DNA from: a bacterium
Lineage (GTDB): Bacteria; UBP15; UBA6099; DSWB01
Direction: 5' to 3'
Length of the DNA: 12,089 nt
NCBI GenBank assembly: GCA_020061125.1
Contig: JAGUYV010000456.1
Span: 1-12,089 of the forward strand
Numbering within the stretch: the first letter of the stretch is position 1; every line of letters begins with the position of its first letter. Shown here piece by piece: positions 1 to 11,748 of this stretch. The notes under the pieces are model-generated. The model was not told where the DNA came from, did not search any database, and saw only the letters and a program-made list of their open reading frames with translations. Both the position numbers and the translations under genes were made by a program.

Positions 1-3000
1 AGCCCCCGTCCTGGGCCTGGGCGCGTCCGCCGTTCCACGGCGCCGCAGCGTCCGCCACGCACATCTCCCCGCCCGTTCCGCCGTCATACCCGCGCCCGTT
101 GGCGGAGATCTTGGATGTCCCGTCTATGCTGATGCTGCTCGCGTACAGGCGCAATATCTGGTTGTCCGCCACATACAGTGTGGAGTTGTTTTTCAATTCA
201 ATCTTGGAATACCGCTGGTTGCCGCTCATGGTCTGGATGTCGCCGTCCAGTATGAGTTCCGTACCCAGCAGCACATCCGTGTTCGCGGTTACATTCACGG
301 GCGTCTGTATCTGGGTCCATGTGGGATTGCCGTCGCTCCAGGAGAATGTGCCGAATGTGGAATTGATGCTGCTCGTGGTGGCGATGGCGCCTGTATATCC
401 GTAATACAGGAAAACTTCATGCTCGCTGAATGCGGGCACGGTGGGGATCTTGACCCAGATTTTCGCGGTCTGCGCGCCGGAGTCGTAACTCTGGATCCAG
501 TAATTGAGCATGGTTGTGCCGTCGGAATCCGCGAACCGCAGGTCCGAGCCGTCCGCGGCCGCGTGGCTGAAATCGAAATAATTGCTTGGCGGCGTTCCGT
601 CCAGTTCCACGAGCAGATGATAGTCCGTCAGGGCATTGGACGACCCCGTGTTGTCCACGGTGATTTTTGTGCGGTACCGCCACATGGGGGAAATCCAGCC
701 CGGAGACGCGGAGGCGCGCAGTTGCGCCATGCCCGCGCTGACCAGGATTTTCGCCGTGTCATAGGAATAGTCGCTGTCCACAGTAAAGGGCCACGCCGCA
801 TTGTCCGGCGCCGGGCCGGTGGTGAACTGCCAGGGCGCGGTGTACGCGGCTTCATTGCCGTACTGGTCTTTGACCCTGACCCGGTAGTTGTAGTCCGTGA
901 CATAGGCAAGTGTGGAGCCTACGGTCCAGGAGTTCATGCTCTCCCAGGCGCTTTCCTGGAATCCAGCCGCGGCCCAGTCCGCGGGCGCGAGGTCCAGCTG
1001 GAACCAGTAGAACACCGTGCTGATGTCATCGGGAGGCTGCGCGGTGAGCGTGACGCCGGTGTCAATGCCGGTTTCCATGTTTGCGGGATACAGCAGCGCC
1101 AGGGCTGTGGGGGCCTGGTTGTCCACGGTGAAAAATGCAGAATAGCGGCGCTGGCCGTTCTGCCCGCCGTCGTTCGGCGTGATCCGGAGATACACGGTGG
1201 CGTCTTCTCCCGGGAACGCGCCGCCCTGGTTGTTCGCGTTCTGCGTGTTCCACCGGAAGGTGGCGTTGGTGCGCGGGGTGGTCACACCGGTGATCTGCCC
1301 GGTGGATGTGCCGCCGCTGACGCCCGTGTTGTTCACCGCTCCCGTGCTGGAGTCGTGAATGAACGCCTGGTACCAGTTGGCGCCGTCATAGGAATATTCC
1401 ACAAGCAGGGAGCAGGTGTCGTTGTTGGGATCCGCGAGGTCGTACTGCACCGTGACCAGGCCCGTGCCGTCGGTGGAAGTCTGCAGGGCGCTGTCTATGT
1501 TCACATCGGGCTGCGACACCGTGACTGTGAACGACCACTCCGGATTCGAGAACGCGCTTTCGTTTCCGAACTGGTCGCGGGTTTTCACATGCCAGTAGTA
1601 TTTGACCCCTGAATCCAGAGTGGGCGGATTCCAGGTGAGGCCCGCCTGCCAGCCGCTCTGGTTCACGGCGATGGTGAACGCGCTGTCCTTGGCGATCTCG
1701 ATGAAGTAGGAAATCGGGGACATGTCCGAGCCAGCGGCCGCGGTGAGCGTGGGGTCGCGGGACACGCCCGTAGTGCCGTTCGTCGGGCTTGAGCAATTGT
1801 AGTTGATGGGCGCTTTGTTATCCACGGTGAACGCGGCGGAATTCTCGGTTTCGCCCTGCACGGCGTCGAAGGTTGTGATGCGCAGGTACACGGTGTCGTC
1901 TTCGATGCCCGCGAGGCTGCCGCCCTGGTTGAGCGCGTTCTGCGTGTCCCATACAAAAGTTGCGCCCGCCTGGGGCGTGGTGATGGCCTTGAGGTTCGAG
2001 ACCGCGGTCCCGGTGTCCACGCCCGTGTTGTCTATGGTTCCCGTGGAAGCGGCGGACAGGTACGCCTGATACCAGGTGGCGTTGTCCGTGGAGTATTCCA
2101 CCAGGAAATCCGCGTTGTCGTTGTTCATGTCGGTCAGATTGTAAGTGACCGTGATGAGGCCGGTGCCGTCAACCGAAGTCTGCGCGATGTTTGTGACGGT
2201 CACATCGGGAGTGACCTGCTCGGTGATGAATAAAAATGTGGGGGAGAAAGACCCGGTTTCGAAACCGCATGCGTCGCGGCCCTTCACGCGCCAGTAATAT
2301 GTGGTGTTGGGGTCCAGGGCCGCGGGCGGAACCCAGTCGTTGTCCGCGCTCTGCCAGCCGCTCTGCTGCAGCCCGGTGGTGAACCCGGCGTCCTCGGCGA
2401 TTTCGAAGTAATAACTGATTACGCCCTGGTCGAAACCGGCTGTTGCCGTTAGTGTGGGCGTGAACGGCTGGTCCGAGGCGCCGTTTGCGGGCGTGTCGCA
2501 AGCGATGCCCGCGGGCGCTTCGGTGTCTATGGTGTAATTCACTCCGGTGTTGTCCACCGAAGAGTTCTTGTTGTTCAGCGTGTCCTTGCAGGAGAAATAC
2601 ACGACCTCCGCGCCGTTGATCATGCCGGTAACAGCACAAGAGAGACCGGTGGTTCCGCTACCTGTGCAGTCGTTTGACATGGAGTCGTAGTTGAAATCAT
2701 CCAGCGCCCAGCGGCACCAGGCGTTTTCGTCCGTTGTGAGATCGATCGTCTCATCATTGGCGCAGATGAAATCGCCATCCGCGGGCACGGCTGCGGTGAT
2801 GGCTGGGGGCAGCGAGTCCACCTGGTATGTGAGCTGCGAGTTGGTGCCCGAGGTGTCTTCGTTGCCGCACATGTCCGCGCACGCTATATAGATGGAGTTT
2901 GAACCCTCGTTCAAACCGCTCACGCCGCACGAGATGTTGATGGAGCCGTCGCCGGAGCAGTCGCCGGCCATGGCTGCGTAGGCCTGATCCGTGAGCGACC

Positions 3001-4477
3001 ATCTGCAATCGCCATTTTCATCGAGTGTGAGGCTGACATTCGGGGCCGTTGTGCTGATGGTCGAGCCGTCAATGGGACTCCAGTTGGATTGCGCGGGCGC
3101 GCCCGTGACATCCACAAAATATGTCAGCTCGGAATTCGTTGCCGCGGTGTGCGCGTTGCCGTAGGCGTCGCGGCAGGAGAAATAGACGATGTCGCTTGGA
3201 GAACCAATTCCGGTGACATTGCACGAATGGGCCGCGCCGCCGCCCGCGCCGCAGTTGTTGGCCATGGCCGCGTACGCGTCGTCATTCAGCGACCAGCGGC
3301 ACCAGGCGTTTTCATCCGTGTCCAGGGTCACGGTCTGCGCGGAACTGCACAGCGTAGCCGTGGTCGCGGGATTCCAGTTGGACTGCGCGGGCACGGCGTT
3401 GTCCACGGCGAACGAAGCCGAGGTCTGCGCAGCGCCGGAGACCGTGGGATCCATGGGCGTGACGCGCAGCCACACATCTGCGTCCTGGCCCGTGAACGCT
3501 CCATTCTGGTTGTTCGCGTGCTGCGTGTCCCAGATGAAGGTGGCGTTGGCCTGGTTGGTTGCGATGCCGGTTATCTGTCCCCCGGAAATTCCGGTGTCCA
3601 CGCCGGTGTTGTCAATCGTGCCCAGGGATGCGCTTTTGATGTACGCCTGATACCAGGTGACATTATCGTAAGAATATTCAATTAATAAGGAACAAGCGTC
3701 GAGATTCGGGTCCGTGAGATCATATTGCAATGTGACTTCGCCGGAACCGTTGGTGGAGGTTTGTGAAGCGCTGTCAATATTCAGAGCGGGCGGATTGTTG
3801 TAATGAACCGTCATTTCCACGAAATCAATCAGCATGCTTTGGTCAGACCGGTTCGCGTATACGGCCCAGGTGATCAGGCCCGTGCCGGAGTTGATGTAAT
3901 CGGAAATGCTGGCCGAGAGGGACCGGGTGAAAGTGGTGTCCGCGCCCGTGGGGATGGCTTCAACCGCGCCAATCTGGACCCATGACGCATTGTTCTGCCA
4001 CGGTTGTCCGTCTATCAGGACCCAAATCGAAAAATCCGTGTTCCCGCCGTTCATGTATCCTTCAAATGTGAAATCAATCTGGGAGATTGAAGCAATTGCC
4101 TGCGTTACAGTCATCTCCACCCACAAAAGCATTTCATCGTTGGCGCCCGGGTCGTCAGTTGTCCAACGCACATCGTTGGATGAGTTTATCCACGCATAAT
4201 TGCCTGGCAATGTGTGGTCATTTCTGTTGCCGGCAGCTCCGCCAAACGGGAACTGGTCCACATCGTTTTCGTACGCCCAGCAGTCAGTTCCGGGGTTGCA
4301 TGTGCTGAAATTGTATGTGGCCGAGGCGGCCAGAGCGGGCGCGGAAAAGAACGGCATACAAATCATTGCCAGAACAAACAGGCAAAGAAACGCAAACAAC
4401 CCGGACACAGGTTCAACAGCACCACGCCCAACGGGGTGGTCTGCCCTGTCCGGTTGTCTCTTGCCCGTGCCGAACAT
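1..4477 (-). CDS. Very large secreted multi-domain repeat protein with DUF2341 domain (3' end outside window)
   Basis: I translated the minus strand from an ATG at 4477-4475 and found no stop down to base 1, giving at least 1492 residues. Residues 26-50 form a hydrophobic signal segment ending in APALA, with likely cleavage after residue 50, so the product is exported. An N-terminal beta-rich domain (about 55-230) precedes the repeats, in the order A1, B1, B2, B3, C1, A2, C2, A3, C3. A is a 128-residue unit with a WYQA motif, B a four-cysteine unit with CRW, and C a fibronectin-III/Ig-like unit with YYW(R/H)VK. DUF2341 follows at about 1266-1361 (starts WRYRTKITVDN, ends FLYYGY). The tail (1370-1492) is a beta segment running into glycine-rich sequence. 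No catalytic motif is visible; adhesion, surface-layer or glycan binding is inferred from the architecture only. In-frame TTG 4537 or GTG 4519 are alternative starts; the Shine-Dalgarno is weak at each. Confidence 0.9.
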   Translation of the reverse strand, partial: MFGTGKRQPDRADHPVGRGAVEPVSGLFAFLCLFVLAMICMPFFSAPALAASATYNFSTCNPGTDCWAYENDVDQFPFGGAAGNRNDHTLPGNYAWINSSNDVRWTTDDPGANDEMLLWVEMTVTQAIASISQIDFTFEGYMNGGNTDFSIWVLIDGQPWQNNASWVQIGAVEAIPTGADTTFTRSLSASISDYINSGTGLITWAVYANRSDQSMLIDFVEMTVHYNNPPALNIDSASQTSTNGSGEVTLQYDLTDPNLDACSLLIEYSYDNVTWYQAYIKSASLGTIDNTGVDTGISGGQITGIATNQANATFIWDTQHANNQNGAFTGQDADVWLRVTPMDPTVSGAAQTSASFAVDNAVPAQSNWNPATTATLCSSAQTVTLDTDENAWCRWSLNDDAYAAMANNCGAGGGAAHSCNVTGIGSPSDIVYFSCRDAYGNAHTAATNSELTYFVDVTGAPAQSNWSPIDGSTISTTAPNVSLTLDENGDCRWSLTDQAYAAMAGDCSGDGSINISCGVSGLNEGSNSIYIACADMCGNEDTSGTNSQLTYQVDSLPPAITAAVPADGDFICANDETIDLTTDENAWCRWALDDFNYDSMSNDCTGSGTTGLSCAVTGMINGAEVVYFSCKDTLNNKNSSVDNTGVNYTIDTEAPAGIACDTPANGASDQPFTPTLTATAGFDQGVISYYFEIAEDAGFTTGLQQSGWQSADNDWVPPAALDPNTTYYWRVKGRDACGFETGSFSPTFLFITEQVTPDVTVTNIAQTSVDGTGLITVTYNLTDMNNDNADFLVEYSTDNATWYQAYLSAASTGTIDNTGVDTGTAVSNLKAITTPQAGATFVWDTQNALNQGGSLAGIEDDTVYLRITTFDAVQGETENSAAFTVDNKAPINYNCSSPTNGTTGVSRDPTLTAAAGSDMSPISYFIEIAKDSAFTIAVNQSGWQAGLTWNPPTLDSGVKYYWHVKTRDQFGNESAFSNPEWSFTVTVSQPDVNIDSALQTSTDGTGLVTVQYDLADPNNDTCSLLVEYSYDGANWYQAFIHDSSTGAVNNTGVSGGTSTGQITGVTTPRTNATFRWNTQNANNQGGAFPGEDATVYLRITPNDGGQNGQRRYSAFFTVDNQAPTALALLYPANMETGIDTGVTLTAQPPDDISTVFYWFQLDLAPADWAAAGFQESAWESMNSWTVGSTLAYVTDYNYRVRVKDQYGNEAAYTAPWQFTTGPAPDNAAWPFTVDSDYSYDTAKILVSAGMAQLRASASPGWISPMWRYRTKITVDNTGSSNALTDYHLLVELDGTPPSNYFDFSHAAADGSDLRFADSDGTTMLNYWIQSYDSGAQTAKIWVKIPTVPAFSEHEVFLYYGYTGAIATTSSINSTFGTFSWSDGNPTWTQIQTPVNVTANTDVLLGTELILDGDIQTMSGNQRYSKIELKNNSTLYVADNQILRLYASSISIDGTSKISANGRGYDGGTGGEMCVADAAAPWNGGRAQAQDGG
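395..682 (-). other. DUF2341 domain within the large secreted protein
   Basis: Residues about 1266-1361 match the DUF2341 pattern that I know: WRYR-KITVDN, L-DY-LLVELDG, DG-DLRFADSDG-TMLNYWI, A-IWVKIPTVPA-S, and the closing LYYGY. DUF2341 occurs in large surface or secreted bacterial and archaeal proteins next to Ig-like or jelly-roll modules. Its function is unknown, and a carbohydrate-binding fold is commonly supposed. Confidence 0.8.
818..1117 (-). repeat. Type C fibronectin-III/Ig-like repeat, copy C3 (100 codons)
   Basis: Starts QAPTALALLYPANMETGID, has VFYWFQLD, an ESAWESMNSW segment and YNYRVRVKDQYGNEAAYT. It is the most diverged C copy and leads into a linker before DUF2341. Confidence 0.7.
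1118..1501 (-). repeat. Type A protein repeat, copy A3 (128 codons)
   Basis: Residues 993-1120, beginning NIDSALQTST and ending FTVDN. Same length as A1 and A2 to the codon, with EYSYDGANWYQAF and TFRWNTQNANNQGGAF motifs. Confidence 0.85.
1502..1816 (-). repeat. Type C fibronectin-III/Ig-like repeat, copy C2 (105 codons)
   Basis: Pattern SPTNGTTGVS...PTLTAAAGS...SYFIEIAKDSAF...NQSGWQ...YYWHVKTRDQFGNES, clearly homologous to C1. Confidence 0.75.
1817..2200 (-). repeat. Type A protein repeat, copy A2 (128 codons)
   Basis: Residues 760-887, ending AFTVDN. It shares the TWYQAY, GTIDNTGVDTG and TFVWDTQNA motifs with A1 and aligns gaplessly. It lacks the cysteine that A1 and A3 carry at repeat position 30. 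Confidence 0.85.
2201..2524 (-). repeat. Type C fibronectin-III/Ig-like repeat, copy C1 (108 codons)
   Basis: Has the pattern P-NG-S...P-TLTATAG...YYFEIAEDAGFTT...SGWQ...L-P-TTYYWRVKGRD, which is the usual look of bacterial fibronectin-like domains. C2 and C3 share the SGWQ/SAWE and YWR/YRV motifs. Confidence 0.75.
2525..2815 (-). repeat. Type B four-cysteine repeat, copy B3 (97 codons)
   Basis: Opens with LPPAITAAVPADGDF, then DENAWCRWALDD, NDC, SCAVTG and YFSCKD. It is more diverged at its start than B1 and B2 and has an extra early cysteine (ICAND), but keeps the same four-cysteine spacing. Confidence 0.8.
2816..3109 (-). repeat. Type B four-cysteine repeat, copy B2 (98 codons)
   Basis: Opens with GAPAQSNWSP. 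The CRWSLTDQAYAAMAGDC stretch closely matches B1, followed by SCGVSG and YIACADMCGN. It carries one extra cysteine (MCGN) compared with B1. Confidence 0.8.
3110..3397 (-). repeat. Type B four-cysteine repeat, copy B1 (96 codons)
   Basis: Ig-like unit opening AVPAQSNW, with DENAWCRWSLND, a second cysteine about 18 residues later, then a CNVTG and a YFSCRD motif. Four cysteines recur at equivalent places in B2 and nearly so in B3, which suggests conserved disulphides in an exported protein (inference). Confidence 0.8.
3398..3781 (-). repeat. Type A protein repeat, copy A1 (128 codons)
   Basis: Encodes residues 233-360, beginning NIDSASQTS and ending FAVDN. It contains an EYSYDN-VTWYQAY core and a TFIWDTQ motif. 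It aligns without any gap to copies A2 and A3; by my hand count it is about 62% identical to A3 (79 of 128). Probably a beta-sandwich module; no named family recognised. Confidence 0.85.
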
Positions 4478-4969: not shown

Positions 4970-6832
4970 ATGGAAGTCAAGAAATCCATTGGTGCTGCGG
5001 AAATTGTGCCGGACGCCATGATGGCGGCGGCCAGGGAATTCAAGGGGCGCACGGCCATGCGCTACCGCCCGCGCGAGGGCCAGCCGTACAGCGGCCGGAT
5101 CACTTACGACGAGCTGGTCAAGTTCTCGCGCATCGCGGCCACTTCCCTGGTGCAGCAGTTCGATCTGCAACCCGAGCAGTGCGTGGGCGTGGTGTCCGAA
5201 AACCGGCCCGAGTACAACATGGGCGACATTTCCGTGCTCTTCGCGGCCGGCACGCCCTGGGGCCTTTACGATTACGACACGCGCAACCAGGAAATTGTGG
5301 AGTACAAGCTCAACGACAGCGAAACCACGATCATGATGGTCAGCGGCATGTTTCTGGAACCCATGCGCAAGATAGTGGCTTCGGGCCGCACACCGCTCAA
5401 AAAGCTCGTGGTTCTGTGCCGCAGCCACGACAACATCAAGTTCGAGTCCTTCGAGACCCCGTTCTGGGATCTGATTGAAAAAGGCGCCGAGGATACATCG
5501 CTGATCGAGGACCGCGTGGCCCTGGTCGAGCCGGAAAGCACCTATAAGCTCATCTACACCTCGGGCACCACGGGCATGCCCAAGGGTGTGATGCTCACTC
5601 ACAGCAACATCTTGAGCAATGTCAAGGACGCCACCAAGGTCATGAACCCCAAGACCGGGCGCAAAATTTCATACCTGCCCGAGGCGCACTCGTTCCAGGG
5701 CATGCTCACCTACCTGGCCCTGCTGAACGGCGTGGAAATCTGGTACTCGTTCAAGAAAACCATCGTGGACGATGTCAAGGACATCCGCCCCACCCTGTTC
5801 CCGGGCGTGCCCGTGGTGTATAAGAAATTCGCGGACGGCATGCGCGAGCGCGTGCTCGAGCTGACCAAGGGCTACATTGACATCGCCGCGGACTACAAGT
5901 CCGCGCCCGTGCGCGCTCTGGTGCGCAAGAAAGTTATCGGCCCGCTGGTGGCCAAAAAGGCGGGCCTGGACGCCGTGGAGATCATGGTCTCCGGCTCGGC
6001 CAAGCTAGACCAGGCGCACGCCGCGGCGCTCAACAATGTGGGCCTGCGCGTGTTCGAGGGCTACGGCATCAGCGAAACCTCGCCCGTGATCAGTGTGGAA
6101 ACCCCGGACGCCAACCGGCCCGGCAGCGTGGGCCGCCCCATCCCCAATGTGCAGGTAAAAATCATTTCCCTGGAAGAGGACGACAACGGCGTACGCCCGG
6201 AACTGCCCCCCGGCGAAGTGGGCGAAGTGTGGGTCAAAGGCCCCAATGTGTTCAGAGGCTACTACAAAGACCCGGAGAAGACCGCCAAGGCCAAACCCGA
6301 GCAGGACGCCTATTTCACCGGCGACCTGGGCCAGATGGACGAGGACGGCTTCCTTTACATCCACGGCCGCGCCGGCCTTCAGGTCAAGATGCTGAACGGC
6401 GAATTCGTGGACCTCGACCACCTGGCCGCCAACATCCTGCGCCACACCACGCTGGTGCAGGCCGCGGTGGTGGACGCGGAGATGCAGAACTCCGCCGTGG
6501 CCATCGTGTCCATCGCCTGGGAGCCGGAAGCCCAGGAGCCGATCGCGCAGCAGCTCGGCATCCCCTTCGACGGCGATTCCATCGCTTTCGCCAAAAACGA
6601 AAAAGTCATCGAAGCCGTGAAAAAGGAACTCATGGACAACAAGCAGAACTTCGGCAACCCGCGCTCGCCGTCCACTCCCAAAAAGTTCCTCTATGTGCGG
6701 CCCATGTCCCCCGAGACTGGCGAAATCACCTCCACCATGAAGCTGCGCGTCAAGAATGTGCTCGGCATGTACAAGGAAAAACTCAATGAACTGCGCAAGT
6801 CCGATCAGGAGTTCATGGTTTATGTGAAGTAA
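4970..6832 (+). CDS. Long-chain fatty acid-CoA ligase (AMP-forming, FadD15/FAA-type)
   Basis: 620 residues, a normal length for long-chain acyl-CoA synthetases. The enzyme activates a fatty acid to acyl-AMP and then to acyl-CoA, in the cytoplasm or at the inner membrane. ANL-superfamily motifs are in order: phosphate loop YTSGTTGMPKGV (196-207), EGYGISETSP (363-372), YFTGDLG (448-454), GR at 466-467, and a C-terminal TSTMKLR (588-594) whose Lys591 is the expected adenylation lysine. The long insertion and the LP-AH-F-G motif near 236-244 favour the long-chain/eukaryote-like subfamily over short-chain ligases. Chain length cannot be told from sequence. One oddity: the usual Asp/Lys hinge two residues after GR is Gly469. 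The ATG has a good Shine-Dalgarno. The gene has its own promoter and terminator, so it is probably transcribed alone. Confidence 0.92.
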   Translation: MEVKKSIGAAEIVPDAMMAAAREFKGRTAMRYRPREGQPYSGRITYDELVKFSRIAATSLVQQFDLQPEQCVGVVSENRPEYNMGDISVLFAAGTPWGLYDYDTRNQEIVEYKLNDSETTIMMVSGMFLEPMRKIVASGRTPLKKLVVLCRSHDNIKFESFETPFWDLIEKGAEDTSLIEDRVALVEPESTYKLIYTSGTTGMPKGVMLTHSNILSNVKDATKVMNPKTGRKISYLPEAHSFQGMLTYLALLNGVEIWYSFKKTIVDDVKDIRPTLFPGVPVVYKKFADGMRERVLELTKGYIDIAADYKSAPVRALVRKKVIGPLVAKKAGLDAVEIMVSGSAKLDQAHAAALNNVGLRVFEGYGISETSPVISVETPDANRPGSVGRPIPNVQVKIISLEEDDNGVRPELPPGEVGEVWVKGPNVFRGYYKDPEKTAKAKPEQDAYFTGDLGQMDEDGFLYIHGRAGLQVKMLNGEFVDLDHLAANILRHTTLVQAAVVDAEMQNSAVAIVSIAWEPEAQEPIAQQLGIPFDGDSIAFAKNEKVIEAVKKELMDNKQNFGNPRSPSTPKKFLYVRPMSPETGEITSTMKLRVKNVLGMYKEKLNELRKSDQEFMVYVK

Positions 6833-6850: not shown

Positions 6851-6865
6851 CGGACGATTTTACCG

Positions 6866-6888
6866 GGGGCCGCTCGCGGCCCCTTTTT
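6866..6888 (+). terminator. Rho-independent terminator of the acyl-CoA ligase gene
   Basis: GGGGCCG-CTCG-CGGCCCC (7-bp GC stem, 4-base loop) followed directly by TTTTT. It separates the ligase transcript from the operon downstream. Confidence 0.88.
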
Positions 6889-6923: not shown

Positions 6924-6952
6924 TTGACACGGCCCGGTAATGAAAATATGAT
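6924..6952 (+). promoter_or_regulatory. Sigma-70-type promoter of the four-gene operon
   Basis: Perfect TTGACA at 6924-6929, 17-base spacer, TATGAT at 6947-6952 (5 of 6 consensus). Predicted transcription start is near 6959, about 54 bases before the first start codon. Confidence 0.8.
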
Positions 6953-6962
6953 CAACTCATTG

Positions 6963-6983
6963 CGCGGCCGCGACAAGGCCGCG
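6963..6983 (+). promoter_or_regulatory. Hairpin in the 5' leader of the four-gene operon
   Basis: CGCGGCC-GCGACAA-GGCCGCG forms a 7-bp all-GC stem starting within about five bases of the predicted transcript start and ending 17 bases before the Shine-Dalgarno. It could stabilise the 5' end of the message. No riboswitch or attenuator structure is evident. Confidence 0.45.
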
Positions 6984-7000
6984 GTTTGAGTTCCGTTTCC

Positions 7001-7006
7001 GGAGGG
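7001..7006 (+). promoter_or_regulatory. Shine-Dalgarno that fixes a TTG start
   Basis: GGAGGG lies 6 bases before the in-frame TTG at 7013-7015. The longer in-frame TTG at 6986 has no ribosome site and would place the GGAGGG inside the gene. Confidence 0.75.
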
Positions 7007-7012
7007 TGTTTT

Positions 7013-8257
7013 TTGGGAACCGTCACCGGGTTGAAATGCAGGGAATGCGGCCGCGAGTACGATATCCGGCCCATCTATATGTGCGAGTATTGCTTCGGCC
7101 CTCTGGGCGTGGAGTACAACATGGAGCGCGCGGGCAAAATCATGACGCGCAAGCGCATCCGCAACGGCCCGCACAGCCTGTGGCGCTACCGCGATCTCCT
7201 GCCCCTGGAAAGTGAAACGCCCGTGGATCTGCACGCGGGCTTCACGCCCCTGGCGCGCGCGGACCGCCTGGCCAAGCGCATCGGCATCAAAAACCTTTAC
7301 CTCAAAAACGAGTGCTTCAATCCCACGGACTCGGTCAAGGACCGCATGGTGTCCGTGGCGGTGAGCAAGGCGCTGGAGTTCAAGTACGACACCGTGGCGT
7401 GCGCGTCGGCGGGAAACATGTCCCTGTCCCTGGCCGCGCACGCGGCCGCGGCCGGGCTGCGCTGCGTGATCTTCCAATCCGCGCGGCAGGACGCTACGCG
7501 CATGACCGGCGGCGGGGTGTACGGCGCGGAAGTCGTGAATGTGGACGGCACGCCCGCGGAGGTGAACCAGCTCTGCGCCGACGCCGCGGCGCGCTCGCGC
7601 TGGGCGTTCATCAATGTGCACCTGCGGCCGTTCTACGCCGAGGGCGCCAAAACCATCGCCTTCGAGATCGCCGAGCAGATGGGCTATTACCTGCCCGGCC
7701 ATGTGATCGCGCCCATGGCCAGCGGCGCCATGCTCGCGGGCATGGCGCGCGGGTTCCGCGAAATCCGCGCCCTGGGACTGGTGCGCGGACCGGAAACCAA
7801 AATTTCCGGCGCGCAGGCCCACGGCTGCTCGCCCATCGTCAAGGCGTTCGACGAAAAAACCACGGTCATCCGCTCGGTCACGCCCGACACCACAATCAAA
7901 TCCCTGTCCGTGGGCAACCCCGCGGACGGCGCGTACGCGCTGCAGGCCATCCGCGACACCGGCGGATTCGCAACATGCTCCAACGACCGCGCCATCATGG
8001 AATGCGTGCGCATGCTGGCCGAAACCGAGGGCGTCTACGCGGACCCCGCGGGCGGCGCCGCCATCATGGCCCTGCGCACCCTGCTCGAACGCAAGCGCAT
8101 CCGCGTGAACGAGCAGGTGGTCCTGATCATTCCCGCGCGCGGCGCCACCACGCCCGACCCGGCCGAAACCGCGGCGCGCAAACCCAGAACTATTCCGCCA
8201 AGCATGGCAGCGCTCAAGGAACTGCTCGAAGGCATGGGCGGCGCGTTCGGCGGCTGA
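7013..8257 (+). CDS. Threonine synthase (ThrC)-family PLP-dependent enzyme, divergent
   Basis: 414 residues from a TTG start. Fold-type II PLP enzyme closest to threonine synthase, which makes threonine from O-phosphohomoserine. An N-terminal zinc ribbon has Cys9, Cys12, Cys24 and Cys27. LWRYRDLLPL (57-66) and FTPLARADRLA are ThrC-like. Lys109 in NPTDSVKDR is the predicted PLP lysine (usual form NPTGSFKDRG). ASAGNMS (131-137), PMASGAML (234-241), SVGNPADG (299-306) and DPAGGAA (344-350) line up with the family. Departures are concentrated in the cofactor and substrate sites: the loop usually reading SGG-L is SGAML, and the C-terminal ITG-GLKDP motif is IIPARGATTPDP (372-383). It may therefore be a threonine synthase variant or a related lyase/synthase with another substrate. 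First gene of an operon; its stop codon sits in the loop of a small hairpin (8248-8264). Confidence 0.88.
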   Translation: MGTVTGLKCRECGREYDIRPIYMCEYCFGPLGVEYNMERAGKIMTRKRIRNGPHSLWRYRDLLPLESETPVDLHAGFTPLARADRLAKRIGIKNLYLKNECFNPTDSVKDRMVSVAVSKALEFKYDTVACASAGNMSLSLAAHAAAAGLRCVIFQSARQDATRMTGGGVYGAEVVNVDGTPAEVNQLCADAAARSRWAFINVHLRPFYAEGAKTIAFEIAEQMGYYLPGHVIAPMASGAMLAGMARGFREIRALGLVRGPETKISGAQAHGCSPIVKAFDEKTTVIRSVTPDTTIKSLSVGNPADGAYALQAIRDTGGFATCSNDRAIMECVRMLAETEGVYADPAGGAAIMALRTLLERKRIRVNEQVVLIIPARGATTPDPAETAARKPRTIPPSMAALKELLEGMGGAFGG

Positions 8258-8264
8258 TCCGCCG
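8248..8264 (+). other. Hairpin spanning the stop codon of the ThrC-like gene
   Basis: CGGCGG-CTGAT-CCGCCG, 6-bp stem with the TGA in its loop and no T-run. It may slow termination or protect the upstream message. Confidence 0.4.
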
Positions 8265-8298
8265 CACGCCGCGCACGCATCCGCGGGAGGATTGCACT

Positions 8299-8544
8299 AT
8301 GGCTAAAAAGCAACTCCAGATGGTGATCCCCGACGGGCTGGTCTCCGAACCGTTCCTGTACCACCTCGTCAAGCAGTTCGACATCGCGCCCAGCGTGCGC
8401 AGCGCGCGCGTGGAGCAGGGCCGCATCAGCATGGTCCTCGAACTGCGCTCGGACAACGAAAACACCATGCAGGAAGGCATCGCCTACCTCACCAAGCTCG
8501 GCATCATGGTCGCCCCGGTCATGGGCGACATCCTCGAAAGCTGA
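8299..8544 (+). CDS. Stand-alone NIL-domain protein (ACT-like)
   Basis: 81 residues, ATG start with GGGAGG (8285-8290) 8 bases upstream, 41 bases after the ThrC-like gene. The whole protein is one NIL domain: a first beta strand KKQLQMVIPD, a helix EPFLYHLVKQFDI, strands ARVEQGRISMVLELRSD, a helix ENTMQEGIAYLTKLGI and a last strand VMGDILES. NIL is an ACT-like ferredoxin-fold module known from the C-terminus of the methionine importer ATPase MetN, where it binds methionine. It also occurs alone or fused to ferredoxins near sulfur amino acid genes. Here it probably binds a small ligand and regulates, or forms a complex with, the PLP enzyme encoded beside it (inference). No catalytic residues, cysteines or membrane segments are seen. 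Confidence 0.87.
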   Translation: MAKKQLQMVIPDGLVSEPFLYHLVKQFDIAPSVRSARVEQGRISMVLELRSDNENTMQEGIAYLTKLGIMVAPVMGDILES

Positions 8545-8555
8545 CCCGTATTCCC

Positions 8556-8572
8556 CCGGCGCGCCGCGCCGG
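8556..8572 (+). other. Hairpin between NIL and dehydrogenase genes
   Basis: CCGGCGC-GCC-GCGCCGG, 7-bp stem, 3-base loop, no T-run. Probably a transcript-stability or processing element rather than a terminator. Confidence 0.45.
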
Positions 8573-8615
8573 CATGCCGCAATACATTCTTCGATGAACA
8601 GGGAGAGACCCGCAC

Positions 8616-9638
8616 ATGGCGGACACAATGCTTGCCGCAGTGTTTGAAGGCCAGGGCGCGCTTGCGCTCAAGGAAGTTCCGGTTCCGAAAATCAGCGCCG
8701 CGGACCAGGTGCTGCTCGAGGTCGAGGCCGCCAGCATCTGCGGAACCGACTGCCAGATCCTGAAAGTGCCGGCCGGACACCCGGCCACGCCCGGCGCCAT
8801 CCTCGGCCACGAATATGTCGCCCGCGTGCTCGAACCCGGCAGCGGGGTTTCGCACCTCAAACCCGGCGACCGCGTGGCCATTGACCCGAACCTCACCTGC
8901 GGCCTCTGCCGCTACTGCCGCATCGGTCTGCCCAACATGTGCGAGAACATGACCACCCTGGGCATCTTCATTGACGGCGGGTTCGCGAAATACAATGTGG
9001 CCCCGGCGCGCGCCCTGCACCCCATTTCACACTCCTTGCCCACGGACACCGCCATCTTCGCCGAACCCATGAGCTGCGTGGTCAACGGCAGCAACAAGCT
9101 GGCCCTGCGGCCCGGCGAGTCCGTGCTCATCCTCGGCGCCGGCCCCATCGGACTCTATTACACCGCGCTCATGAAAGCCGCGGGCGCGGGAAAAATCATC
9201 GTGGCCGAAGTCACGGACATGCGCGCGGCCAAGGCAAAAGAAATGGGCGCGGACATCGTCATCAATCCGCTCAAGGAATCCCTGCCCGACCTCGTCAAGC
9301 GCGAGACCGAAGTGGGCGTGGACGCGGCCATTGACGCCGTGGGCGCGCTCATCGCCGACGCCCTGCTCAACACACGCCGCGGCGGCCGCATCCTGCTCTT
9401 CGGCATGAACAGCAACGCGCGCTTCGATCTCCAGCAGTACGACATCACCCGCTACGAAAAAACCGTGATCGGCACCTTCATCGCCAACCACACTTTCCCG
9501 GCCACCATTCAGCTTCTCGAAAGCGGACAGCTCCCGCTCGAAAAGCTCATCACCCACCGCATCGCCCTGGACGCCATCGGCGACGGCCTGGACATCATGC
9601 GCAGCGGCGACGCCATCGAGATCATCGTCACTCCGTGA
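8616..9638 (+). CDS. Zinc-dependent medium-chain alcohol/polyol dehydrogenase (threonine/sorbitol dehydrogenase-like; possible IolM-type)
   Basis: 340 residues, the usual length for this family. The enzyme oxidises a secondary alcohol to a ketone with NAD(P). Catalytic zinc ligands are Cys42 (in CGTD), His65-Glu66 (GHEY) and probably Glu150. The structural zinc site has Cys95, Cys98, Cys101 and Cys109. The Rossmann loop is GAGPIG (174-179), and acidic Glu198 at the end of the next strand favours NAD over NADP. Subfamily features resemble L-threonine 3-dehydrogenase and sorbitol dehydrogenase. Two substrates are suggested by context: threonine, from the ThrC-like gene, or a keto-cyclitol, because the next gene resembles the inositol-pathway hydrolase IolN, whose partner IolM is a dehydrogenase of this type. 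I cannot decide from sequence. AGGGAGAG (8600-8607) is the ribosome site; the gene sits third in the operon. Confidence 0.92.
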   Translation: MADTMLAAVFEGQGALALKEVPVPKISAADQVLLEVEAASICGTDCQILKVPAGHPATPGAILGHEYVARVLEPGSGVSHLKPGDRVAIDPNLTCGLCRYCRIGLPNMCENMTTLGIFIDGGFAKYNVAPARALHPISHSLPTDTAIFAEPMSCVVNGSNKLALRPGESVLILGAGPIGLYYTALMKAAGAGKIIVAEVTDMRAAKAKEMGADIVINPLKESLPDLVKRETEVGVDAAIDAVGALIADALLNTRRGGRILLFGMNSNARFDLQQYDITRYEKTVIGTFIANHTFPATIQLLESGQLPLEKLITHRIALDAIGDGLDIMRSGDAIEIIVTP

Positions 9639-9660
9639 CGCTTTAAAATATTCACATAAG

Positions 9661-9678
9661 CATTCCCGGCGCGGAATG
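9661..9678 (+). other. Hairpin between dehydrogenase and creatininase-family genes
   Basis: CATTCC-CGGCGC-GGAATG, 6-bp stem with 6-base loop, no T-run, placed 14 bases before the AGGAGG ribosome site of the next gene. Confidence 0.4.
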
Positions 9679-9706
9679 ACACGACGCAAACAGGAGGCTC
9701 CACACC

Positions 9707-10738
9707 ATGGCCACGAAAAAGAAACCCGCCGCGGGCAAAGCGCCCGTCACGCGCAAGCTCACCATCAAGAAGCACAAATGGGAACTGCCCCCCAAGGGCG
9801 GCAAAATGGAAAGCCCGGACCCCATCTACTTCCAGAACATGCCCTACGCCCACATTGAGGAACGGCTCAAAAAGAACGACCTCATCATCCTGCCCATCGG
9901 CAGCACCGAGGCCCACGGCCCCAACGCCTGCCCCGGCGAAGACACCTTCCTGGTCACCCGCATGGCCGAGCAGGTCGCAAAAAAGGTCGGCTGCACCATC
10001 GCACAGCCCCTGTGGTACGGCTCCCACCCCTTCCACCACATGGGCATGCCCGGCACCATCCTCGTGCCCGAAGAAACCTTCATCGGCATGCTCAAGGCCA
10101 TGATGGCCGGGTTCTGGAACACCGGCTTCCGTAAAATGATCCTGCTGAACGGACACGGGCAGGAATATGTCATCCCCACGGCCATCCACCAGTTCGCCAA
10201 GCACTTCCAGGTCCCCGGCGTGTTCATCAATTTGAACTGGTACCACGCCATCCCCGACGAATTCAACACCAAAGACAAGGGCGGCCCCTACGACACCCCG
10301 TTCATCCACGCGGACGAGGTCGAGACCTCCTGGTCCCTGGCCCTGTTCCCCGAGTTCATGGATCAGAGCGTGGCCGTGGACACCGTGCCGCGCGGCTGGA
10401 TGCCCGACGGGCACATTGACAAGGCCGGCAACCTGCTGCGCCGCCCCATCGCCTGGTACGGGCAGGTGGGCTGCGGCCCCGTGGAAATCAGCGCATATCC
10501 TGAAGGCTGCGTGGGCAAAAGCACCAAGGCCGACCCCGAGAAAGCCTACAAGGGCATCAGCGCTTTCATGGATTACCTCACCGCCCTGTGCGAGGACATC
10601 ATGGAAGCCTTCCCCGTGGGCAAGCTGCCCCCGGCCGACCAGCTCACCCAGCGCTCGCCCGAGGAAATCAAAGCCGTCACCAAAAAGCCCCTCACCAAAG
10701 GCTGGAAGAGCATCTACTCCCTGGGCTATCCCTTCTGA
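9707..10738 (+). CDS. Creatininase-family metal-dependent hydrolase, long form (IolN / 3-dehydro-scyllo-inosose hydrolase-like)
   Basis: 343 residues, about 90 longer than typical creatininases. ATG with AGGAGG (9692-9697) 9 bases upstream. Metal-binding motifs of the family are present: GSTEAHGP (65-72, Glu68 and His70), Asp79 in GEDT, NGHG (148-151, His150), and HADEVETS (201-208, His201 and Glu204). A Lys-rich N-terminal tail (about 1-33) and a C-terminal extension after about residue 300 flank the core. The motif wording, especially GPNACPGEDT and GSHPFHHMGMPGT, is what I recall for proteins annotated as 3-dehydro-scyllo-inosose hydrolase, the ring-opening enzyme of the Thermotoga inositol route. 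A dehydrogenase gene beside it supports that. Other creatininase relatives cleave cyclic amides or N-glycosidic bonds, so the substrate remains open. Last gene of the operon. Confidence 0.88.
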   Translation: MATKKKPAAGKAPVTRKLTIKKHKWELPPKGGKMESPDPIYFQNMPYAHIEERLKKNDLIILPIGSTEAHGPNACPGEDTFLVTRMAEQVAKKVGCTIAQPLWYGSHPFHHMGMPGTILVPEETFIGMLKAMMAGFWNTGFRKMILLNGHGQEYVIPTAIHQFAKHFQVPGVFINLNWYHAIPDEFNTKDKGGPYDTPFIHADEVETSWSLALFPEFMDQSVAVDTVPRGWMPDGHIDKAGNLLRRPIAWYGQVGCGPVEISAYPEGCVGKSTKADPEKAYKGISAFMDYLTALCEDIMEAFPVGKLPPADQLTQRSPEEIKAVTKKPLTKGWKSIYSLGYPF

Positions 10739-10767
10739 ACCGCAAGCCCAGCCAACGCAAACACCAG

Positions 10768-10803
10768 GAGCCGCGCGCCCTTCGCGCGCGGCTCTTTTGT
10801 TTT
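10768..10803 (+). terminator. Rho-independent terminator of the four-gene operon
   Basis: GAGCCGCGCGC-CCTTC-GCGCGCGGCTC, a perfect 11-bp stem with 5-base loop (10768-10794) followed by TTTTGTTTT. It begins 30 bases after the creatininase-family stop. Confidence 0.92.
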
Positions 10804-10866: not shown

Positions 10867-10896
10867 TTGACAAACAGCGTTTTGGCATGATACACT
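10867..10896 (+). promoter_or_regulatory. Probable promoter downstream of the tandem repeats
   Basis: Perfect TTGACA at 10867-10872, 18-base spacer, TACACT at 10891-10896 (4 of 6 consensus). The long spacer and weak -10 are typical of promoters that need an activator, which fits the direct repeats immediately upstream (inference). Confidence 0.5.
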
Positions 10897-11043: not shown

Positions 11044-11073
11044 TTAGCCTGACAATAAGTGACATTATTGAGT

Positions 11074-11748
11074 ATGGATGTCTCCGAAACTCACATTAGC
11101 AAGTTTTCTAAGATAGTATGGATGTTTATTTGTACTATTGCAGGCTGCGTTCTTCTCACAATTTCATGGAAAATCCTGAAAGGTGCTTATGATGAAACAA
11201 AGATGGGAAACAGCATTAGTATTTTACTTGGCTTTTTCGGTGTGAGTTATACGCTTCTGTTTTTTATCCCGATATACTTTCTTGTAAGTAATTTCATAAC
11301 AAATGCCAAAGATACATTCAGAAAACCCGAACAGACATTGTTTTTCATTTTTGCCGGCATCGGTTCAGCGTCATTGCCGTTAATAGTAATATTTCTCTTC
11401 AAACCAATTTTTTTCTTTGTCTCTGTCATACTCTCTGGATATTTTTCATTAATCCTTGTTTTTTTTCCTCTTCTTGGTTTTGGTATTGTATGGTGGCTGA
11501 TGCAGCATCATAACAATTCAAACAATAGCCATCCTACAGATGAGACAAGCTACTTTTTGATATTTACCTTGTTCATCATGTCTGGCATTGGCGTGGCAAT
11601 TTGCTTATTGGCTGCATTACAATATCTTTCATCATTTCTTGCATTTGGTGTAATTTTCAATATGCGATCAGCGAATGATATCACCGTTGCCTTAATCACT
11701 ATTGCTCTTGTCGTTTGGCGAATGGAAATACTTCATTCTGGAAAATAG
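11074..11748 (+). CDS. Polytopic membrane protein of unknown function
   Basis: 224 residues from ATG 11074; GTG 11059 and TTG 11068 are in-frame alternatives, and none has a clear ribosome site. Hydrophobic segments at about 12-32, 49-72, 87-108, 111-143 (possibly one long or two helices), 159-186 and 202-219 predict an inner-membrane protein with five to seven spans. A polar Asn/His loop (145-157, HHNNSNNSHPTDE) interrupts the later spans. No transport, enzymatic or toxin motif is recognised. Codon use is AT-rich (many TTT, ATT, AAA), sharply unlike the G/C-ending genes to the left, which suggests recent transfer. It stands alone, with no partner gene in the same direction nearby. Confidence 0.75.
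   Translation: MDVSETHISKFSKIVWMFICTIAGCVLLTISWKILKGAYDETKMGNSISILLGFFGVSYTLLFFIPIYFLVSNFITNAKDTFRKPEQTLFFIFAGIGSASLPLIVIFLFKPIFFFVSVILSGYFSLILVFFPLLGFGIVWWLMQHHNNSNNSHPTDETSYFLIFTLFIMSGIGVAICLLAALQYLSSFLAFGVIFNMRSANDITVALITIALVVWRMEILHSGK

Follow-up and report, generated by a model that had tools for sequence, protein, structure and literature searches.

Breakdown of inositol by the Thermotoga-type route proceeds through four enzymes, IolG, IolM, IolN and IolO, as outlined by Rodionova 2013 (via PMC3750489) and in the entries NCBIfam NF041097/8/9. For homocysteine, a thiocarboxylate-dependent synthesis in Wolinella is mentioned in PMC5764234, where Price et al. also point out that homocysteine routes are still to be discovered, and the NIL domain of L-aspartate semialdehyde sulfurtransferase (L-ASST) is reported to bind methionine (PMC12068725). 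Here we describe a four-gene operon that probably consists of two functionally separate modules, one being the MDR2-IolN part of an inositol route and the other a remnant of a ThrC-ThiS-NIL cassette.

The window, a stretch of 12,089 nucleotides, corresponds to contig C303 in a MAG of 4.1 Mb (completeness 79%, 513 contigs) whose closest relatives are UBP15-type bacteria, e.g. UBA6099 and ADurb.Bin236. The four genes are separated by 41, 71 and 68 bp (Table 1), and no terminator-like site was seen between them on the + strand. The Pfam domains, in operon order PALP (E-value 5e-70), NIL (1e-8), ADH (5e-26) and Creatininase (4e-46), largely bear out the gene calls of the earlier note (ThrC-like enzyme, NIL protein, zinc dehydrogenase and creatininase-fold protein). 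Its proposal of a four-gene operon enclosed by one promoter and one strong terminator is likewise in agreement with the open reading frames, the hairpin and the promoter match, the latter being one of three promoter-like sites found in the region versus 1.2 expected. An Rfam scan upstream of this operon and of the operons of two members of the same order found no element.

Table 1 Features of the four-gene operon and its borders, in positions of the window
Feature	Position	Strand	Evidence or remark
Terminator-like hairpin	6865..6884	+	3' of upstream AMP-ligase gene
Promoter-like site TTGACA-17-TATGAT	6924..6952	+	11/12 consensus matches
ThrC-like fold-type II PLP enzyme, 414 aa	7013..8257	+	PF00291, 237 bits; TTG start after GGAGGG
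ThrC/NIL gap, 41 bp	8258..8298	+	position of a ThiS/MoaD-like gene in order-mates, empty here
Small stand-alone NIL-domain protein, 81 aa	8299..8544	+	PF09383, 34.9 bits (cut-off 24)
MDR2, zinc-dependent medium-chain dehydrogenase, 340 aa	8616..9638	+	ADH_N + ADH_zinc_N (PF08240, PF00107)
IolN, 3-dehydro-scyllo-inosose hydrolase, creatininase fold, 343 aa	9707..10738	+	NF041098
Strong intrinsic-terminator-like hairpin with T tail	10766..10796	+	13 pairs, 10 G-C

Judged by its sequence, the fourth gene clearly encodes an IolN. This identity rests on the curated model NF041098; the protein scored 522 bits against the model (cut-off 245), confirming the IolN-like hydrolase proposed earlier, and only 78 bits against creatininase (cut-off 235) and 40 against MftE (cut-off 172). 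Relatives in order-mates are up to 82% identical to it, and those in MAGs of Bacillota, Spirochaetes, Atribacteria and Actinomycetota 53-71%. When an IolN orthologue was aligned with the creatininase fold, NGH and the first-motif residues E, H and D all matched, residues whose metal-site roles we assume to be those of creatininase. Position 122 of creatininase is changed from Glu to Gln in IolN, and the window protein carries the identical motif.

The neighbouring dehydrogenase had been grouped with this hydrolase as an IolM/IolN-like pair, of which the IolN half stands and the IolM half does not. MDR2 scored 199 bits both in the IolM model NF041097 (cut-off 450) and in the L-threonine 3-dehydrogenase (Tdh) model TIGR00692 (cut-off 458), and thus resembles IolM no more than Tdh, each score being less than half of its cut-off. 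A phylogenetic analysis placed MDR2 in one clade (support 97) and IolM in a separate clade (100), with about 31-34% identity between the two. Although IolM (scyllo-inosose 3-dehydrogenase) shares the MDR superfamily and the Bacillota operons described below with MDR2, true IolM coexists with MDR2, and the score, the tree and a true IolM elsewhere in the window genome together rule out IolM as the identity of the window dehydrogenase. The zinc ligands C42, H65, E66 and E150, the structural-zinc cysteines C95, C98, C101 and C109, and a GAGPxG motif with the acidic, NAD-type residue E198 are invariant in 15 MDR2 proteins.

The gene context of MDR2 points to inositol. Four Bacillota MAGs contain a LacI-IolM-MDR2-IolN-IolO operon, whose MDR2 orthologue has 60-61% identity and whose IolM, scored in two of the four, reached 512 and 525 bits; no IolG was found within these stretches. 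Furthermore, MDR2 adjoins IolM in genomes G315, G177 and G046, and both IolN and IolM in G052/G327. MDR2 occurred in 12 of 386 genomes and IolN above its cut-off in 20, and all 12 fell inside those 20. Outside the order, all five MDR2 genomes were within the 13 IolN genomes of 379 (hypergeometric 2e-8). Among all 20 IolN genomes, a close IolG was present in 0/12 with MDR2 versus 6/8 without it (Fisher 7e-4, or 0.0097 by family), and both states were present within a single family (f27). The P values are optimistic and overstate the strength because the genome sample is phylogenetically uneven and not independent. Three Gfo/Idh proteins of genomes lacking MDR2 exceeded the IolG cut-off (454, 362 and 407 bits). 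Two IolN genomes, G180 and G198, had neither MDR2 nor a close IolG, and a more distant Gfo/Idh adjoins IolN in G198. These contexts support the inositol link suggested for the last two genes. They also bear on a reading within amino-acid metabolism, with MDR2 as an L-threonine 3-dehydrogenase and threonine synthase as its partner, which takes up the equal Tdh and IolM scores and the adjacency to ThrC and NIL. This is highly improbable given the distance of 199 bits from the Tdh cut-off of 458, the genome co-occurrence with IolN, the adjacency to IolM/IolN and not ThrC outside the order, and the nature of the ThrC next to it, a cassette paralogue distinct from the canonical ThrC on contig C144. 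For the window dehydrogenase itself, score and gene context rule out a Tdh identity.

The remaining enzymes of the route were searched for in the seven genomes of the order. IolN and IolO were above their cut-offs in 7/7 and IolM (NF041097) in 6/7, the window genome carrying IolM at C371:13907-15055 (555 bits) and IolO at C30:12419-13204; a full IolM was missed in one MAG. The presence of IolM and IolO on other contigs of the genome indicates that the Thermotoga-type route exists here and is only scattered. The absence of an epimerase noted before therefore holds for the operon and not for the organism, as IolO lies on C30 of the same genome. In contrast, IolG (TIGR04380) was above its cut-off in none of the seven genomes, the best score being 160 bits versus 355. 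The best Gfo/Idh match, tested in the order-mate G001, is UDP-GlcNAc 3-dehydrogenase-like (441 of 450 bits) with an orthologue adjoining lpxA in another order-mate, which speaks against an unnoticed IolG in the order. Compared with the Thermotoga-type route, the window genome and the order thus have IolM, IolN and IolO above curated cut-offs, apart from the IolM just mentioned, but have MDR2 in place of IolG and genes that are spread across contigs and do not form a single operon.

MDR2 is best read as an inositol dehydrogenase that depends on zinc and NAD and has taken the place of IolG, a role suggested by its co-occurrence with IolN, its mutual exclusion with IolG and its placement beside IolM/IolN. 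It would take over the inositol dehydrogenation done elsewhere by IolG (inositol 2-dehydrogenase), with which it shares the proposed step and the place beside IolM-IolN. However, IolG belongs to the Gfo/Idh/MocA family, to which MDR2, an MDR protein, is unrelated; membership in the IolG family is ruled out, and MDR2 would be a non-orthologous replacement. It is rather unlikely that an unrecognised IolG exists and that MDR2 acts alongside it in the inositol route on another isomer (e.g. scyllo- or D-chiro-inositol) or on a later ketone, for instance in a reduction step. The placement with IolM and IolN would suit this as well, the polyol specificity of MDR enzymes varies widely, and these genomes have many Gfo/Idh proteins, but the mutual exclusivity with IolG speaks against it, and no alternative step-1 candidate adjoining IolM or IolN was seen in MDR2 genomes. 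With MDR2 as the stand-in for IolG, we propose that it supplies the first step of inositol breakdown where a genome encodes IolM, IolN and IolO but no IolG. In the simplest case, it would oxidise myo-inositol to scyllo-inosose with NAD+ and a catalytic zinc; IolM, encoded on another contig, would produce the diketone, IolN would open the ring to give 5-keto-L-gluconate, and IolO, also on another contig, would epimerise this product. IolN and the inositol route are already known, whereas MDR2 as a replacement of IolG is apparently new, and no description of an MDR-type inositol dehydrogenase was found in the open-access literature. Annotation tools would score MDR2 genomes as inositol-negative or label MDR2 as a threonine dehydrogenase.

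The first two genes of the operon belong to a different context. Between ThrC and NIL, order-mates of families f2 and f3 carry a ThiS/MoaD-like gene of about 91 aa with a GG end. The resulting ThrC-ThiS-NIL trio recurs in unrelated genomes, sometimes with a ThiS-NIL fusion; in one of them (G017), the cassette is followed by genes for ThiF, TusA and a CysK-like protein. Neither MDR2 nor IolN was found in the stretches examined around the trio of unrelated genomes. ThiS of the cassette kind occurred in 108/386 genomes. Of 30 loci retrieved, 18 had a full-length ThrC directly upstream of ThiS, the remainder often having a CysK-like gene. A stand-alone NIL as the direct partner of ThrC was ruled out, as a ThiS gene or domain usually lies between them. 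The only Rfam matches in the scanned cassette loci were SAM riboswitches (five loci from four families), each preceding the ThrC gene in the same orientation by some 50 to 400 nt. The cassette ThrC has NINxRPYYAEGxKT and ASGS where threonine synthases have NSxNxxRxEGQKT and GNxGN. The canonical ThrC of the window genome on C144 retains NSxNxxRxEGQKT and GNLGN, and since these motifs are absent from the cassette enzyme, the cassette reaction is probably changed.

The ThrC-like and NIL proteins might be regarded as a regular threonine synthase and its regulatory subunit, consistent with a score of the window ThrC above the cut-off in TIGR00260 (202 bits versus 167), albeit the lowest among the homologues scored. 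There is little to recommend this explanation, as the genome has a separate canonical ThrC, the cassette ThrC is without the NSxNxxRxEGQKT and GNxGN motifs, ThiS stands between ThrC and NIL in relatives, and the control is by SAM and not by threonine. ThrC-ThiS-NIL is instead a widespread gene set, seemingly without earlier description, whose probable product is a methionine precursor, homocysteine. The SAM riboswitches, ThiS and the reported binding of methionine by NIL suggest that a sulfur-carrier thiocarboxylate takes part in forming homocysteine, and the threonine-synthase ancestry points to O-phosphohomoserine as the substrate. In the intact cassette, the ThiS-thiocarboxylate would be the sulfur donor and an activated homoserine, probably O-phosphohomoserine, the acceptor; their reaction on the ThrC-like enzyme would yield homocysteine, and NIL would sense methionine. 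PF01053 enzymes are present in the order as well, one of them beside a canonical ThrC, so that another homocysteine route probably exists there. A PDB search with NIL gave no match, and no description of ThrC with ThiS/NIL was found in the open-access literature.

The cassette has partial parallels in the known systems. The Wolinella system, whose PLP enzyme is an O-acetylhomoserine sulfhydrylase, uses a ThiS-like sulfur carrier for homocysteine as proposed here, whereas the PLP partner in the cassette is a ThrC paralogue and a NIL protein is added. L-aspartate semialdehyde sulfurtransferase (DUF39 + NIL/ferredoxin) likewise employs a NIL domain in homocysteine synthesis, but the cassette is without DUF39 or ferredoxin, and its NIL is stand-alone or fused to ThiS. 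Among the homocysteine routes that Price et al. consider still to be found, the cassette is a candidate that can be tested.

By all sequence features considered, the ThrC-NIL pair of the window is a remnant of this cassette in which ThiS has been lost and ThrC is fast-evolving. ThiS is not present in the 41-bp gap, and the sole ThiS of the cassette kind found in the window genome is at C2:1993-2265, in a second sulfur cluster with MoeB/ThiF, DUF169, a SepCysS-like protein, TusA and a ThrC paralogue. The window NIL has 44-46% identity with that of order-mates. In the ThrC tree, the window protein groups with the cassette ThrC of order-mates (100/99) on an end branch of 1.42, by far the longest in the tree, and it deviates at 13 of 92 otherwise invariant columns. 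The PLP Lys is retained in SVKDR; the deviations include TGNGLKT, in the motif region with a Thr near the PLP ring nitrogen, which is changed to PARGATT. The motif positions read NVHLRPFYAEGAKT and ASGA, with the canonical NSxNxxRxEGQKT and GNxGN absent. The window ThrC therefore looks to be under relaxed constraint.

The relation between the two halves was assessed from their junction, which is shared by three families of the order and is thus old there: f1 and f3 are complete, and f2 (G001, locus L056) has ThrC-ThiS-NIL-MDR2 joined and IolN on another contig. The ThrC-NIL/MDR2 junction was absent from every locus examined outside the order, and the arrangement is read as two modules sharing one promoter. 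The earlier note had asked whether the four-gene order extends across genera, and it is indeed kept in other genera of the same order; conservation of the halves only separately was found outside the order and not within it. A single pathway for all four genes, in which a cyclic, perhaps amino- or sulfur-substituted inositol would be oxidised and ring-opened before a PLP-dependent step of the ThrC type under a NIL regulator, could draw on the ThrC-(ThiS)-NIL-MDR2-IolN order common to several genera and on the joined genes in G001. This idea has nevertheless become improbable, since other lineages have MDR2 and IolN with no ThrC/NIL, ThrC-ThiS-NIL in turn is found free of MDR2/IolN and preceded by SAM riboswitches, IolN is on a separate contig in G001, and the window ThrC looks relaxed. 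We infer that the two modules share no substrate. A more far-reaching reading can be put forward only tentatively, with somewhat less than even confidence: that ThrC-ThiS-NIL is a widespread, undescribed homocysteine route in which a PLP enzyme derived from ThrC acts on O-phosphohomoserine with a protein thiocarboxylate and is controlled by SAM riboswitches and by NIL (methionine), that MDR2 is a new inositol dehydrogenase family, and that the ThiS-less ThrC/NIL pair of the window lineage was recruited into the inositol operon with a changed role. The occurrence of the ThrC-NIL-MDR2 junction in all three families of the order hints at some coupling.

In three loci (L012, L013 and L014), representing Spirochaetes, Atribacteria and Actinomycetota, IolN (59-63%) was followed by a medium-chain dehydrogenase (MDR) of another kind (26-30% identity), which was neither IolM nor MDR2 and is a further dehydrogenase variant of the inositol route. 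L012 also carried an IolO-like gene further along (279 bits; cut-off 300). L015 holds two tandem IolN homologues, 35% and 53% identical to the window IolN; the first, at 204 bits, narrowly misses the 245-bit cut-off of the IolN model. Scored with one model, the IolN proteins of loci L143-L163 split into a group at about 510-560 bits, to which the window IolN belongs, and another at about 300-325 bits, comprising longer proteins with 40-46% identity.

The SAM riboswitches found upstream of five ThrC-ThiS(-NIL) operons from four families (82-94 bits) are evidence for a role of these operons in the methionine pathway. The sulfur cluster on contig C2 of the window's own genome perhaps serves phosphoserine-based cysteine metabolism; its SepCysS-like protein scored 346 bits with PRK09331 and 319 of 365 with TIGR02539, and a comparable SepCysS-like/ThrC set was carried by contig C121 of genome G001. 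The canonical threonine synthase and its adjoining PF01053 enzyme, a neighbor shared with genomes G002 and G003, likely represent an O-phosphohomoserine branch point.

Locations of the features
Feature	Location	Remarks
DUF2341 gene	window 2-4471 (-)	>=1490 aa, truncated by contig end; repeated segments
AMP-binding (acyl-CoA ligase-like) gene	window 4970-6832	immediately upstream of operon
Promoter-like site	window 10867-10896	
ORF	window 11059-11748	229 aa, hydrophobic, membrane-like
Tandem IolN homologues	L015:5743-7848	
SAM riboswitch	L061:10508-10610	
SAM riboswitch	L216:1756-1871	
SAM riboswitch	L225:2042-2149	
SAM riboswitch	L227:1828-1952	
SAM riboswitch	L230:1135-1251	
Sulfur cluster	L054 (C2:1993-6758)	ThiS, MoeB/ThiF, DUF169, SepCysS-like, TusA, second ThrC paralogue
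Canonical threonine synthase, PF01053 enzyme	L245 (G000:C144:1239-3899)	

Among the remaining window genes, the DUF2341 protein looks secreted, and the AMP-binding gene has a terminator-like hairpin of its own. The 229-aa ORF, for which Pfam and NCBIfam gave no match, is preceded by the promoter-like site.
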